Under the pieces are notes generated by a model that was not told where the DNA came from, did not search any database, and saw nothing but the letters and a program-made list of their open reading frames with translations. A stretch of 47,670 nucleotides of DNA from Clostridia bacterium (lineage in GTDB: Bacteria > Bacillota > Clostridia > Oscillospirales > Acutalibacteraceae). The stretch is taken from the NCBI GenBank assembly GCA_017379935.1, contig JAFNVC010000007.1, positions 1 to 47,670 of the forward strand, read 5' to 3'. Position 1 is the stretch's first letter, and the number at the start of each line of letters is the position of its first letter. The position numbers and the translations under genes were made by a program. Below, piece by piece: positions 11,741-38,008 of this stretch.

Positions 11741-11775
11741 ATCCCTCTGAATCGGCTGATTCAGAGGGATTTGTT
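11741..11775 (+). terminator. Bidirectional terminator between permease and XRE regulator
   Basis: A 13-bp perfect stem, ATCCCTCTGAATC (11741-11753) with 11758-11770, has loop GGCT and is followed by TTGTTATTT. It separates two converging genes. Confidence 0.85.
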
Positions 11776-13201
11776 ATTTAATGTATTCGATGTCGTATTC
11801 GTCAATTTTCATTGTATTGGATTCACAATCATATCCGATAAAATAAAAATAATATCTTCCGTTCTCATCAGGTACGGTATTAAACTGATTCGTGTCCGCG
11901 TTATATAAAATAATGTAATCGTAAATATCTATTTCCGTAAATGATGAGCTCAAGCCGAAAAGATTATTAGGTATTTTTGAAATCCATCTTTCATCTGACG
12001 GGAGTGCTTTTTCAAATTCGTCTGCCTGATTATCTTCAAACCATATATCGGAAGATGAATGTATATATTCAGTGTCCTCATACTGATCTTCATCCGTCCA
12101 GTAATATGTATTTATACCTTCCGCTTTCGGAATATCAATTCCGATAATCTGTTCGGCGTTTATTACGGCAGCGTCAGTATGGTCGGCAATATCCTCCGCC
12201 ATATACGGCGCAAATCCGAAAGCACCAAGAATTAACGTAAAAATAACACCAACAACAATATTTTTAGTACATTTATATCCCTTTGCTTTAAAAATAATGC
12301 CCATTATAAGTGACGCAATCGGAATCGGCATTGCCACAAAAAACGGCCAACAGCTTTCATGCCAAGTAAGCTCTCCGGGAATAAGCATCATTATCAGCAT
12401 AGCAATAAATTCTGAAAAAAACGTCGCCACAAACAGAAGATTGAGAACAATCTGAGTAGTCGTCATTCCCTTTTTGTTGACAACCGTTTTTTCAGGACTG
12501 CTTTTTAAAAGCAAAGTAAACACGCTGTTCTGAACAAGCTCCGATTTTCTTAAAATGAAGGTAATGGCGTTAGCCGTAACATAGAGGTATTCGCCGTAAT
12601 CTAAAAACTGTTCAATATCGTTAAAGTCGAATTTGAAATCAGATTTTATTTCTCCGTTTCTTGTAATTTTTACTGTAAAGAAGTCATCATAAGCCTTAAT
12701 ATCGTAAGAGGATTCAGGTAATCTTTCAATCACCTTTTTCGAGCTTGATTTGTTAGCAGAAAAGGTTTTTATAACAATTACCGTTGATAAAAACATAACT
12801 CCTGCGCCTAAGCCTAAAAACCACTGTCCTTCCTGCTCAAATAACGCCCATACTAAAAAACCAACCGCAAAAGCTGCACACAATATCATTCGGTAAATCA
12901 ATTGCATATTGCTGCGCTTGTACAAAGTTTCAAGCTCATCTTTTGTATATCGGAAAACATAGCTTTCTTTTGCTACAGGCAAATTTACCTCGGTCTGATT
13001 CTCCTCTGCACATCCGAGAAGCTCATCAACGGACACGCCGAAAATTTCCTTGAGTCTTATCAAATTATCTATCGTCGGGACTGTCTGATCCTTTTCCCAC
13101 AGGCTGATTGTCTGTCGGCTGACAAGCAGCTTCTGACCAAGCTCCTCCTGCGAGAGTCCGAGCTGTTTTCTGTAATAATTTATTTTCTCTCCAGTTGTCA
13201 T
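11774..13201 (-). CDS. XRE-family regulator fused to a five-helix membrane domain
   Basis: Residues 1-63 form a Cro/C1-type helix-turn-helix (LSQEELGQKLLVSRQTISLWEKD). Membrane segments follow at about 101-121, 127-147, 250-275, 284-304 and 314-333, with a soluble 90-residue stretch between helices 2 and 3 that resembles small PH-like/YcxB-type domains, and a C-terminal soluble tail (about 335-475). It is therefore a membrane-bound transcription regulator that could sense an extracytoplasmic or membrane signal. Its promoter overlaps two palindromes (13269-13306), suggesting autoregulation, and it is divergent from a sugar symporter. The start has AAAGGAG at proper spacing. Signal unknown. Confidence 0.85.
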   Translation of the reverse strand: MTTGEKINYYRKQLGLSQEELGQKLLVSRQTISLWEKDQTVPTIDNLIRLKEIFGVSVDELLGCAEENQTEVNLPVAKESYVFRYTKDELETLYKRSNMQLIYRMILCAAFAVGFLVWALFEQEGQWFLGLGAGVMFLSTVIVIKTFSANKSSSKKVIERLPESSYDIKAYDDFFTVKITRNGEIKSDFKFDFNDIEQFLDYGEYLYVTANAITFILRKSELVQNSVFTLLLKSSPEKTVVNKKGMTTTQIVLNLLFVATFFSEFIAMLIMMLIPGELTWHESCWPFFVAMPIPIASLIMGIIFKAKGYKCTKNIVVGVIFTLILGAFGFAPYMAEDIADHTDAAVINAEQIIGIDIPKAEGINTYYWTDEDQYEDTEYIHSSSDIWFEDNQADEFEKALPSDERWISKIPNNLFGLSSSFTEIDIYDYIILYNADTNQFNTVPDENGRYYFYFIGYDCESNTMKIDEYDIEYIK

Positions 13202-35304: not shown

Positions 35305-35322
35305 TGTAAACTTGAGTTTACA
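35305..35322. repeat. Perfect palindrome after punA
   Basis: TGTAAACT-TG-AGTTTACA (35305-35322) begins just after the punA stop. It lacks a T-run on the plus strand, so it may be an operator rather than a terminator. TTTACATT recurs at 35368. Confidence 0.45.
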
Positions 35323-35347: not shown

Positions 35348-35365
35348 TATCAACTCGGGTTGATA
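35348..35365. promoter_or_regulatory. Palindrome upstream of the XRE-lipase gene, candidate operator
   Basis: TATCAAC-TCGG-GTTGATA (35348-35365) lies 57 bases before the start codon of a gene encoding an XRE DNA-binding domain; autoregulation is the simplest reading. Confidence 0.45.
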
Positions 35366-35421
35366 GATTTACATTTTAATTAAGCTTATAATTAAGTCAT
35401 ATTAAAAGCGAGGTGTTTTTT

Positions 35422-37023
35422 ATGACAATTGGTGAAAAAATTGGTGTTTTAAGGCACGAGGCAAATATGTCTCAGGACGAGCTTGCGGAAAAGCTCGACG
35501 TTTCAAGACAGTCTGTTTCAAAATGGGAATCCGGCAAGGCACTCCCCGACTCTGATAAGGTTCTTGCTATGGCTGAGCTGTTCGGCGTTTCAACAGATTT
35601 TCTGTTAAGGGACACAGAAGAATTTGTAGCCGACGAGGAATTAACACAGCCCGTTGCCGAGCCTGTTGTTCAGGCCACAAGCATTGCATGGAATGAGCCT
35701 CCAAAAACACCGTCTCAGAAAAAGAACAACACTAAAAAGGTTGTTGCGTTTGTTGTTGCGGTCTGCCTGATTATCGCGGCAATCATTCCGATTCCGACAG
35801 GACTTTACAAAAAGGCTTTCGATGCAATTACCGAAGACCCTGTCGAATATCCGTACATCCTTGTACACGGTCTCGGCGGTTGGGGTGCAGAGGCTGACAT
35901 AAACGATGTAAGCCCTTATTGGGGCAGTACAACCGGAAGTCTTGTTGACTACCTTGCAGGTCAGGGTTATACGGCTTATGAGGCTTCGGTGGGCCCATTC
36001 TCCAGCACATGGGACAGAGCCTGTGAGCTTTACGCTCAGCTGAACGGCACAACCGTTGACTACGGTGAGGCACATTCTGCGGCGCACGGTCACGCACGAT
36101 ACGGCAGAGAATACACGACACAGCTCGCTCCCGGTTGGGGTACAAAAACCGAGGGCGGTCAGCTTATCAAGGCAAATCTCGTAGGACACAGCTTCGGCGG
36201 TGCAACGGTTAGAATGCTCGCATCCCTGCTCGAATACGGCAACGAGGCCGAGGTTGAAGCAAGCGGTGAAAATGTATCCGGGCTTTTCAAGGGCGGTAAG
36301 GGTGATTACATCAACAGCGTAACTGCACTCTGTGCACCGCACAACGGCTCTACACTTTTCTACGTTATCGACCAGTATAAGGTTGTTGACCTTGCAATGG
36401 ACATCGTCAAGCTCGGCGGTTCGCTGACTCAGAACAATTCTATCGGTGATTTCTACGATTTCCGACTTGAGCATTTCGGCGTTGATTCAGCCAATACTGA
36501 TGCAAGCACAATCATAAACACCGTTTTCAGCCAAGGCACGGACAACGCGGCGTACGATCTTTCTCCCGACGGTGCGGCTGAAATCAACAAGCAGATAAAG
36601 CTTGTGCCCGACGTATATTATTTTTCCTATGCTTACTCAACAACACATATAAGCTCGCTGTCAGGCTACCACGTTCCCGATATTAGCGGCACGCTCGCGC
36701 TTCTCATCCCAACAGCAACGCTTATGGGAAGATACTCCGTCAACAAGGTTACTGATTTCCCGATTGACGAAACGTGGCTCGAAAACGACGGACTTGTCAA
36801 CGTAGTTTCTGCACAGCATCCCGCAAATGACGAATGGCAGGATTACGATGAAGAAAATATCGTAAAAGGAAAATGGAACGTGATGCCCGTCAAGCGCGGA
36901 CATCACGGCACGGTTATCGGCCTTAGTGCAGACACAGTAGAAACACACGATTTCTATCTCGAGCTTATCTCAATGATAAACACACAGCCGAGGGACAGAA
37001 AAATTTATTTCAAGGGGTTTTAA
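35422..37023 (+). CDS. Fusion protein: XRE helix-turn-helix, transmembrane helix, family I.5-like lipase
   Basis: Residues 1-65 are a Cro/C1-type HTH (MSQDELAEKLDVSRQSVSKWE). A linker leads to one transmembrane helix (about 107-127). Residues 140-533 form a lipase resembling Geobacillus family I.5 lipases: YPYILVHGLGGWG (oxyanion), VGPFSSTWDRACELYAQL, DYGEAHSAAHGHARYGREY (zinc-site region), LVGHSFGGATVRML with Ser257, WLENDGLVNVVS with Asp456 and GHHGTVIG with His495. The triad is intact. With the HTH inside, the lipase would face outward. The start is the ATG at 35422 behind GAGGTG; a GTG three codons earlier overlaps that site. The dockerin gene follows after 3 bases. Confidence 0.9.
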   Translation: MTIGEKIGVLRHEANMSQDELAEKLDVSRQSVSKWESGKALPDSDKVLAMAELFGVSTDFLLRDTEEFVADEELTQPVAEPVVQATSIAWNEPPKTPSQKKNNTKKVVAFVVAVCLIIAAIIPIPTGLYKKAFDAITEDPVEYPYILVHGLGGWGAEADINDVSPYWGSTTGSLVDYLAGQGYTAYEASVGPFSSTWDRACELYAQLNGTTVDYGEAHSAAHGHARYGREYTTQLAPGWGTKTEGGQLIKANLVGHSFGGATVRMLASLLEYGNEAEVEASGENVSGLFKGGKGDYINSVTALCAPHNGSTLFYVIDQYKVVDLAMDIVKLGGSLTQNNSIGDFYDFRLEHFGVDSANTDASTIINTVFSQGTDNAAYDLSPDGAAEINKQIKLVPDVYYFSYAYSTTHISSLSGYHVPDISGTLALLIPTATLMGRYSVNKVTDFPIDETWLENDGLVNVVSAQHPANDEWQDYDEENIVKGKWNVMPVKRGHHGTVIGLSADTVETHDFYLELISMINTQPRDRKIYFKGF

Positions 37024-37026
37024 GAA

Positions 37027-37968
37027 ATGAAAAGAGCAATCAAACGATTAACCGCAGTTGTACTTGCTGTTATTATCACTGCAGGTCTTTTTACATCAGC
37101 TTTTGCAGTACTCAGAGGTGATGTTGACCTTAACGGCAAGATCAACTCTCTCGATGCACTCCGCATTCTCAGATATAACGTTCAGCTTGACACCGAAATT
37201 GACGAGAAGATTGCCGATATCAACGGTGACGGCAAAATCAATTCACTCGATGCGCTCGGCGTGCTTCGCGTAAGTGTAGGTCTCGACGAGGAAAGCGAGG
37301 TTGAGGATGACGAGCCTTCCGCTCCCTCCTGTGTCGCTGATATCGTTGCAATGTATAACGATGCGGTCAACAAGGTTATAAGCGACAAGGCAGGCTACAC
37401 AAAGCAGAGAACAACGACGGTAACTCACCTTGACGCAGGCAATTATACAAGTATGGCCGGTGATATCGTAAAGGAATTCCTCGGCGAAGGTACAAGCGAA
37501 TTTAAAAACAGCAAGGGCAATTCAAAATATCTTGCAAAGGCTTCACTCACAGCAGATGACGTTACATCCGCAGCCTGTCAGAAAACAGGCTCAACCTACA
37601 CAATCACACTTGACCTTAAAAACGGTACAAGCTCATACACAAGCAAAAAAGCCGAAGATAAATCTCCTGTTGCTAAAACCGGTCTTCTCTCAGGAAATCA
37701 GCTGAACCCAGAGTATGACTACCTCAACAGCGCAAGCATCAATGCAGGCATCAAGAGCAAGGGCGCAAAGGCCAACTCCGTAAGCACAGAAACAATCAAC
37801 ACCAAAATCGTTGTAACTATTGATGCCGAATCCGGAAAAATGCTTTCTTACACAGCATCCTTCGACCTTGAGGTTTCGATTAAAAAAATCTCAGTTGCTA
37901 TCATCAGTGTTCCGAGTGCCGAGGGCAAGGCTCATACCGCTGTTGTTCTCTCCGATTTCAAGTGGTAA
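37027..37968 (+). CDS. Secreted protein with N-terminal type I dockerin
   Basis: A signal peptide (1-27, ending SAFA) is followed directly by a type I dockerin (about 29-87) with two calcium-binding repeats, GDVDLNGKINSLDALRILRY and ADINGDGKINSLDALGVLRV. An acidic linker and a 215-residue domain of unknown family follow, with Lys/Ser/Thr-rich beta segments. Dockerins bind cohesins on scaffoldins or the cell surface; N-terminal placement is less common than C-terminal. The start is 3 bases after the lipase stop, with the AAGGGG site inside the lipase gene, so the two are translationally coupled. The unknown domain may bind or assist the lipase (inference). Confidence 0.87.
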   Translation: MKRAIKRLTAVVLAVIITAGLFTSAFAVLRGDVDLNGKINSLDALRILRYNVQLDTEIDEKIADINGDGKINSLDALGVLRVSVGLDEESEVEDDEPSAPSCVADIVAMYNDAVNKVISDKAGYTKQRTTTVTHLDAGNYTSMAGDIVKEFLGEGTSEFKNSKGNSKYLAKASLTADDVTSAACQKTGSTYTITLDLKNGTSSYTSKKAEDKSPVAKTGLLSGNQLNPEYDYLNSASINAGIKSKGAKANSVSTETINTKIVVTIDAESGKMLSYTASFDLEVSIKKISVAIISVPSAEGKAHTAVVLSDFKW

Positions 37969-37975
37969 ATAAAAT

Positions 37976-38008
37976 TTAAGGTGCGGTAATCCCGCACCTT
38001 TCTTTTTT
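37976..38008 (+). terminator. Terminator after the lipase-dockerin operon
   Basis: A 9-bp stem, AAGGTGCGG (37978-37986) with 37992-38000, is followed by TCTTTTTTG. Confidence 0.88.

Follow-up and report, generated by a model that had tools for sequence, protein, structure and literature searches.

A predicted single-pass membrane regulator with a lipase as its outer domain, likely directed at its own promoter, in uncultured gut bacteria

In a window of 47,670 nucleotides (the window being the whole stretch of DNA that we analysed), we find a gene that joins an XRE HTH DNA-binding domain, a membrane helix and a lipase in one protein. Judging from sequence comparisons, this protein is likely to be a single-pass transmembrane one-component regulator, the outer domain of which is an apparently active lipase and the main or only target of which is its own promoter. 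The HTH very probably serves to regulate the gene that encodes it, and a feedback of the fusion on its own gene appears to be well supported. The features discussed here, with their positions in the window, are as follows.

35305..35322, no strand assigned: O1, the distal predicted operator, palindrome TGTAAACTTGAGTTTACA, with 0 mismatches to TGTAAAC-N4-GTTTACA
35348..35365, no strand assigned: O2, the promoter-proximal predicted operator, palindrome TATCAACTCGGGTTGATA, from motif refinement; the 20-mer element extends to 35367
35364..35369, plus strand: putative weak -35 element TAGATT, overlapping the end of O2, with a 17-nt spacer to the -10 box
35387..35392, plus strand: -10 element TATAAT of the inferred promoter, at a near-constant position relative to O2 across the fusion loci
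35422..37023, plus strand: fusion of XRE HTH, linker, membrane helix and family I.5-type lipase, 533 aa (ORF, Pfam, PDB sequence search, conserved residues, predicted structure, fold search)
35422..35616, plus strand: HTH DNA-binding domain, residues 1-65 (HTH_3 at 11-61, pLDDT, dN/dS)
35617..35739, plus strand: disordered cytoplasmic linker, fast-evolving and lysine-rich at its end, residues 66-106 (pLDDT, entropy)
35740..35802, plus strand: single membrane helix, residues 107-127 (hydrophobic stretch in the sequence, helix in the model)
35845..37020, plus strand: lipase domain, residues 142-533, with Ser257, Asp456 and His495 (Lip_C at 142-509, PDB and fold search)
37027..37968, plus strand: secreted-looking dockerin protein with a weakly NTF2-like C-terminal domain (Dockerin_1, fold match)
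37978..38000, plus strand: terminator-like hairpin with a T run, downstream of the dockerin gene, a consensus match only (4 in the region, 2.8 expected from shuffles)

The reading frame of the fusion is uninterrupted from the ATG at 35422 to the stop at 37023. A Pfam search of the protein finds HTH_3, an HTH of the Cro/C1 type, with an E value of 1.8e-15 and a score above the family cut-off, and Lip_C with an E value of 4.3e-63 (213.7 bits, the cut-off being 27). No OmpR-type model is among the 24 Pfam families found for the fusion protein at E up to 1, and no dockerin is among its Pfam domains; the dockerin sits on the neighbouring protein. In the predicted structure the HTH is modelled confidently (pLDDT block means of 88-96 over residues 1-60), the linker is disordered at residues 67-104 (pLDDT < 50), a helix covers residues 105-121 (the hydrophobic segment recognised in the protein sequence is at 107-127), and the lipase part is mostly confident, except for about 311-370. 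The lysines preceding the helix suggest that the N-terminus lies inside the cell; the HTH is predicted to be cytoplasmic and the lipase to lie outside. A chain made of these three parts had been described in an earlier note on this DNA, and it is upheld by Pfam, predicted structure and fold search. It contains both parts that define a transmembrane transcription regulator in the main text of a recent survey (PMC10269533), namely a DNA-binding domain and at least one membrane region.

The closest solved structures found in a PDB sequence search are lipases of the Geobacillus, Pelosinus and Staphylococcus kind (E down to 2.4e-69). A Foldseek search with the predicted model gives family I.5-kind lipases in its first 43 rows, with E values from 6.5e-37 to 1.8e-31 and about 400 columns matched. 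The catalytic residues Ser257, Asp456 and His495, earlier read as intact in the protein of the window, are so, and the alignment shows them conserved in 48/48 fusion proteins. The same holds for Asp198, His218 and His224 (48/48), while the position of Asp379 has D in 46 and E in 2 of the 48; these four are the zinc-site residues, as in the L1 lipase. The active site appears to be complete and the outer domain is apparently an active lipase. With the family I.5 lipases (Geobacillus L1, T1 and T6, Pelosinus fermentans lipase 1 and EstA of C. botulinum) the fusion shares the fold, the triad and the zinc-site residues at an identity of about 34-37%. These family I.5 lipases are known as secreted enzymes with neither an HTH nor a membrane anchor, whereas the fusion has both. 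The source genome holds two further lipases of the same type (L002:1429-2700 on contig C3 and L003:1489-2772 on contig C32), both secreted-looking and without an HTH.

The main evidence on the target of the HTH comes from the two palindromes upstream of the gene. Scanning 250 bp, we found O1 with at most two mismatches upstream of 31 of the 47 fusion genes (15 exact) and of 1 of the 40 HTH-less lipase genes, for which the first start codon of the frame was taken as the gene start; this contrast has a Fisher p of 1.6e-10, with kinship among loci ignored. The scan left out L050, which has no upstream sequence, and the five duplicate loci L028-L032. At two mismatches, 16 of the 47 fusion loci are without O1; at up to three mismatches it is seen in 36 fusion loci, and shuffles predict about 1.3. 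Because the neighbouring genes differ among the fusion loci, O1 appears to move with the fusion gene rather than with the region. All 36 fusion loci that have O1 at up to three mismatches also have O2, which in the window lies at a distance of 43 bp, the O2 motif having been refined downstream of O1 on the fusion loci themselves. By its sequence, O2 is a weaker predicted site than O1. As a guard against circularity, motifs derived from either half of the fusion tree were used to score the opposite half: a score of at least 8.0 was reached in 36/47 fusion upstreams and in 0/40 HTH-less ones, where the best control had 7.9 and the cut-off of 8.0 was set after the controls had been seen to reach that value.

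The position of the sites relative to the promoter is nearly fixed. In 35 of 36 loci the first base of the -10 box lies 39 nt past the first base of O2, and in the remaining one the distance is 38 nt (search window 33-47 nt, ties resolved toward 39); the -10 element at 35387 was not returned by a generic promoter scan. The -35-like element overlaps O2 and is separated from the -10 box by a spacer of 17 nt, and the centre of O2 falls at about -42.5 relative to the inferred start near 35399. The distances between O1 and O2 form clusters at 32-35, 43-45, 52-57 and 66 bp, with empty gaps among the 35 values (L061, with a spacing of 169, is omitted from the phasing statistic). Their helical phasing is R = 0.74 at 10.5 bp, with a maximum of 0.77 at 11 among the periods tried; none out of 20,000 uniform draws reached the value at 10.5 bp, and p is 0.00055 when just the 11 distinct values are used. 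On the tree the spacing class has changed at least 11 times (42 loci, with six spacings added by hand). Two proteins in contact with each other would need just such a same-face spacing, retained over many changes, and since O1 and O2 are on the same face of the DNA, they are probably filled cooperatively.

How could such a protein work? We suggest that the cytoplasmic HTH is tethered to the membrane by the flexible linker and that an HTH dimer may bind the strong palindrome O1 and the weaker O2 abutting the -35 box, presumably in a cooperative manner, which would place the promoter of the gene under control from the membrane. An HTH bound to O2 at about -42.5 could contact RNA polymerase and activate, or it could hinder the polymerase and repress; lambda-type repressors activate from about -42.5, and a protein sitting over the -35 box can also block transcription. 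The amount of the lipase, or its substrate-bound state, may set the occupancy of the operators, such that the output of lipase would be metered to external lipid. Lipid or the state of the lipase as the input signal is the boldest thing that we infer here. In full, the proposal is that of a transmembrane trigger enzyme: an exoenzyme that would read its own substrate outside the cell and switch its own gene through one helix and the occupancy of two phased operators, thus being enzyme, sensor and single-target factor in one molecule, without a second messenger or an obligatory partner. We put it forward tentatively, as something that lies slightly on the improbable side.

The main rival to an input by lipid or lipase state is a level-keeping feedback. 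The protein might be a homeostatic autorepressor, with the HTH counting the protein that is made or inserted and holding its level down, while the lipase senses nothing; this is possible, although we judge it to be somewhat improbable. It fits all of the operator data. Furthermore, the linker is both disordered and fast-evolving (mean alignment entropy 2.88, versus 1.05 for the HTH), which makes it less than obvious that it could pass on a defined conformational signal. On the other hand, a proximal site near -42.5 combined with a better palindrome upstream is a geometry that is also typical of activators. Selection has a bearing on this question as well, through dN/dS ratios that are rough because synonymous change is near saturation in several of the close pairs: the HTH has 0-0.12 in 10 of 11 pairs (in the remaining pair dS is unusable), the lipase has about the same (0.06-0.11) and the linker up to 0.83, but residues 107-141, that is the membrane helix and the stretch that follows, are in several pairs as low as the HTH, a hint of a role beyond anchoring. 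The constraint on the HTH, similar to that on the lipase, speaks for our main reading of the protein as a regulator of its own gene.

We also considered a broader regulon of the HTH that would include lipid genes. It is common for a regulator to act on several targets, and there is one lone intergenic one-mismatch site (L116:1501-1518, that is C27:26706-26723), 47 nt before an ORF of 171 aa that resembles a small membrane protein. However, the exact O1 pattern occurs six times in the 18 genomes of the genus, one site per genome (once in the source genome and once each in five others, thus in 6 of the 13 fusion-bearing genomes), and all six sites lie 94-113 nt before the fusion gene. Likewise, the 20-mer at up to one mismatch has seven sites in these 18 genomes and 7/7 are just upstream of a fusion gene. 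Sites that deviate at exactly two positions number 18, and 3 of these lie at fusion genes; for comparison, the reversed control pattern, searched at up to two mismatches in the same 18 genomes, yields 21. A relaxed pattern gives three other sites in the source genome, two of which fall inside long ORFs. Apart from the single intergenic site, the pattern search thus yielded nothing above background in the 18 incomplete genus genomes, and we regard a wider regulon as unlikely; the operator pair looks private to the fusion gene. Of the earlier idea that the HTH regulates genes, the regulatory role is favoured by the comparative operator evidence, the predicted target narrows to the gene's own promoter, and the wider gene set finds no backing in the pattern searches.

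A further source of evidence are natural variants, which were spotted on inspection and were not planned for. For example, the fusion of L049 has R29V and K34E in the recognition helix and neither operator, whereas both operators and the common helix are present in its sister L043, whose gene order is the same. In L040, from the same group, the entire HTH is gone and the operators are gone too, and none of the three loci that lost the HTH (L040, L070, L073) has a good site. The fusion of L058 carries the strongly altered helix SCRTVSDWE, and its O2 scores only 5.0, yet TATAAT stands at the usual place. All five members of a clade with S31A (L053, L055, L063, L066, L089) have CGCAAC-N5-GTTGC instead, at -105 to -110. 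The picture is not uniform: L056 and L078 combine the common helix and a good O2 with an unrecognisable O1, in L064 the best O2-like site is as far away as -231, and at some loci the operators differ though the recognition helix is unchanged. A tree-aware test of the correlation between operators and HTH found 4 pairs, too few for significance given the few independent losses, with L056 and L078 labelled operator-positive by eye. A link between K34 and particular operator letters was dropped: the inner letters are altered in L012 and L014 (S31T together with K34S or K34G), yet similar alterations are seen in L018, L020, L035 and L037, which have the common helix.

These variants bear on the possibility that the operators serve another regulator, the fused HTH being passive or anchoring the enzyme near the nucleoid. 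The genus does have XRE regulators with identical recognition-helix letters, but the sites change or vanish with the fused HTH itself (in L049, L058, the S31A clade and the three HTH-loss loci), and a search of the 18 genus genomes, which have many XRE genes, showed the exact site at no other place; we therefore consider this to be very improbable. That the HTH may only localise the enzyme, as the earlier note had allowed, is likewise disfavoured, since HTH and operators are kept and lost together in the cases seen. The palindromes between 35305 and 35365 had been no more than a suggestion as binding sites; as predicted sites of the HTH they now have strong comparative support from the contrast of fusion and HTH-less loci, the genome-wide patterns, the phasing and the variants.

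The fusion occurs in a group of uncultured gut bacteria. All 18 genomes of the window's genus have a match, and 13 of them have HTH and lipase fused in one frame. A second collection has the fusion at 40 loci among the best 80 of 537 relatives, with five duplicates of genus loci among these 40, and in total 48 distinct fusion proteins were collected. In a sample of the family, a match with an E value no worse than 1e-90, extending over the query from its residue 1 on, was found in 14 of 398 genomes and 4 of 135 genera; in a sample of the order the fusion was found in 2 of 394 genomes, both from the window's family. A midpoint-rooted tree of 97 lipase domains (48 from fusions, 49 without HTH) needs 4 HTH changes and reads as a single gain, basal to a clade of 51 rows (support 100/93), followed by three losses, in L040, L070 and L073. 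The fusion is a real inherited architecture. The source assembly is only 84.8% complete, but the recurrence of the same one-frame fusion in the genus and in the second collection, together with purifying selection on either side of the HTH-lipase joint, leaves a negligible chance that an assembly chimera or a frameshift has fused two genes, so that both worries raised in the earlier note, an error of joining and an absence of the fusion elsewhere, are excluded.

As noted before, a dockerin ORF begins 3 nt past the stop of the fusion, at 37027. Its protein has a type I dockerin (Dockerin_1) at residues 31-78 (Pfam, E 2.6e-12), a start that by eye looks like a signal peptide and a C-terminal domain with a weak likeness to NTF2-like folds. 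A co-directional dockerin gene 3-24 nt downstream is seen in the window and in four near relatives, i.e. at 5 of 39 fusion loci. Any same-strand gene within 30 nt downstream is seen at 12 of the 39, and the products differ; three of the 39 (L062, L064, L068) have no downstream ORF on the contig, and the count omits the fusion loci L063 and L089 and the genus loci with short flanks. By eye, neighbours at other fusion loci are MgtE-like, pyridoxamine-oxidase-like or unrelated genes. We have ruled out the dockerin protein as a general functional partner, given its restriction to the window and four near relatives among these loci. We prefer to see in it a local addition rather than a part of the mechanism, and in the window's subclade it probably shares the transcript of the fusion. 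The proposed tie to a cellulosome-like surface is not supported either: the loci with a dockerin gene are all near the window, and the source genome, which is incomplete, has 22 dockerin matches and a single cohesin match. The sole cohesin match and a dockerin match share a strand at C21:56962-58611 and sit in open frames that are equally long (600 aa), as in an adaptor scaffoldin. At L042, L044, L045, L051 and L059, differing small proteins that look membrane-bound or secreted are encoded no more than 12 nt past the lipase, as though different lineages had taken on different partners.

Transmembrane transcription regulators are widespread, and the single-pass form is the commonest, while few membrane-tethered regulators have been validated experimentally, according to the main text of a 2023 survey (PMC10269533). 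Like ToxR, CadC and others described there, the fusion has a DNA-binding domain, a membrane helix and an extracytoplasmic part in one chain (PMC10269533). What sets it apart from them is an outer domain that makes up a whole lipase, with none of the catalytic residues missing, and a DNA-binding part of the XRE type. ToxR- and CadC-like regulators have an OmpR-type winged-helix domain for binding DNA, which is not shared by the fusion with its Cro/C1 HTH_3 domain. Words beginning with "lipase", "Xre" or "enzym" do not occur in the main text of that survey (PMC10269533). In the co-component systems VtrA/VtrC and ToxR/ToxS, as the same text presents them, the membrane regulator has an outer partner next to it, which possibly binds hydrophobic molecules (PMC10269533); the neighbour of the fusion, by comparison, is a dockerin protein of one subclade only, with a weak NTF2-like fold match. 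Among trigger enzymes, PutA is a single protein that works in metabolism and also regulates its own operon directly (PMC6978683). For the fusion we propose a like combination of enzyme and own-gene regulator. Its enzyme is predicted to lie outside the cell, and any signal would have to cross the membrane; PutA, by contrast, works in the cytoplasm and on the inner face of the membrane.

We did not find a fusion of XRE, membrane and lipase parts described in the open-access literature, among the matches listed (titles and beginnings of abstracts). The building principle as such is not unique, because other kinds of XRE fusions occur in the same genus. A second XRE fusion lies within the window itself, at 11774-13201 on the minus strand (475 aa, several membrane helices), with similar ORFs in other genomes of the genus (L128, L130, L139). 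Three more genus XRE fusions are found at L134, L141 and L135; as named by eye, one is ADP-ribosylglycohydrolase-like, one is NadR/CYTH-like and one has a single membrane helix and an outer domain.

The way in which membrane-tethered transcription factors work is an open question. The present family offers a test bed for it, with a defined enzyme as the outer domain, a single predicted target, mapped predicted operators, natural variants of helix and operators, and sisters that lack the HTH. If it is true that the state of the lipase controls transcription, this would be a minimal outside-in circuit within one gene, and it would be a way for gut bacteria to meter a degradative exoenzyme.
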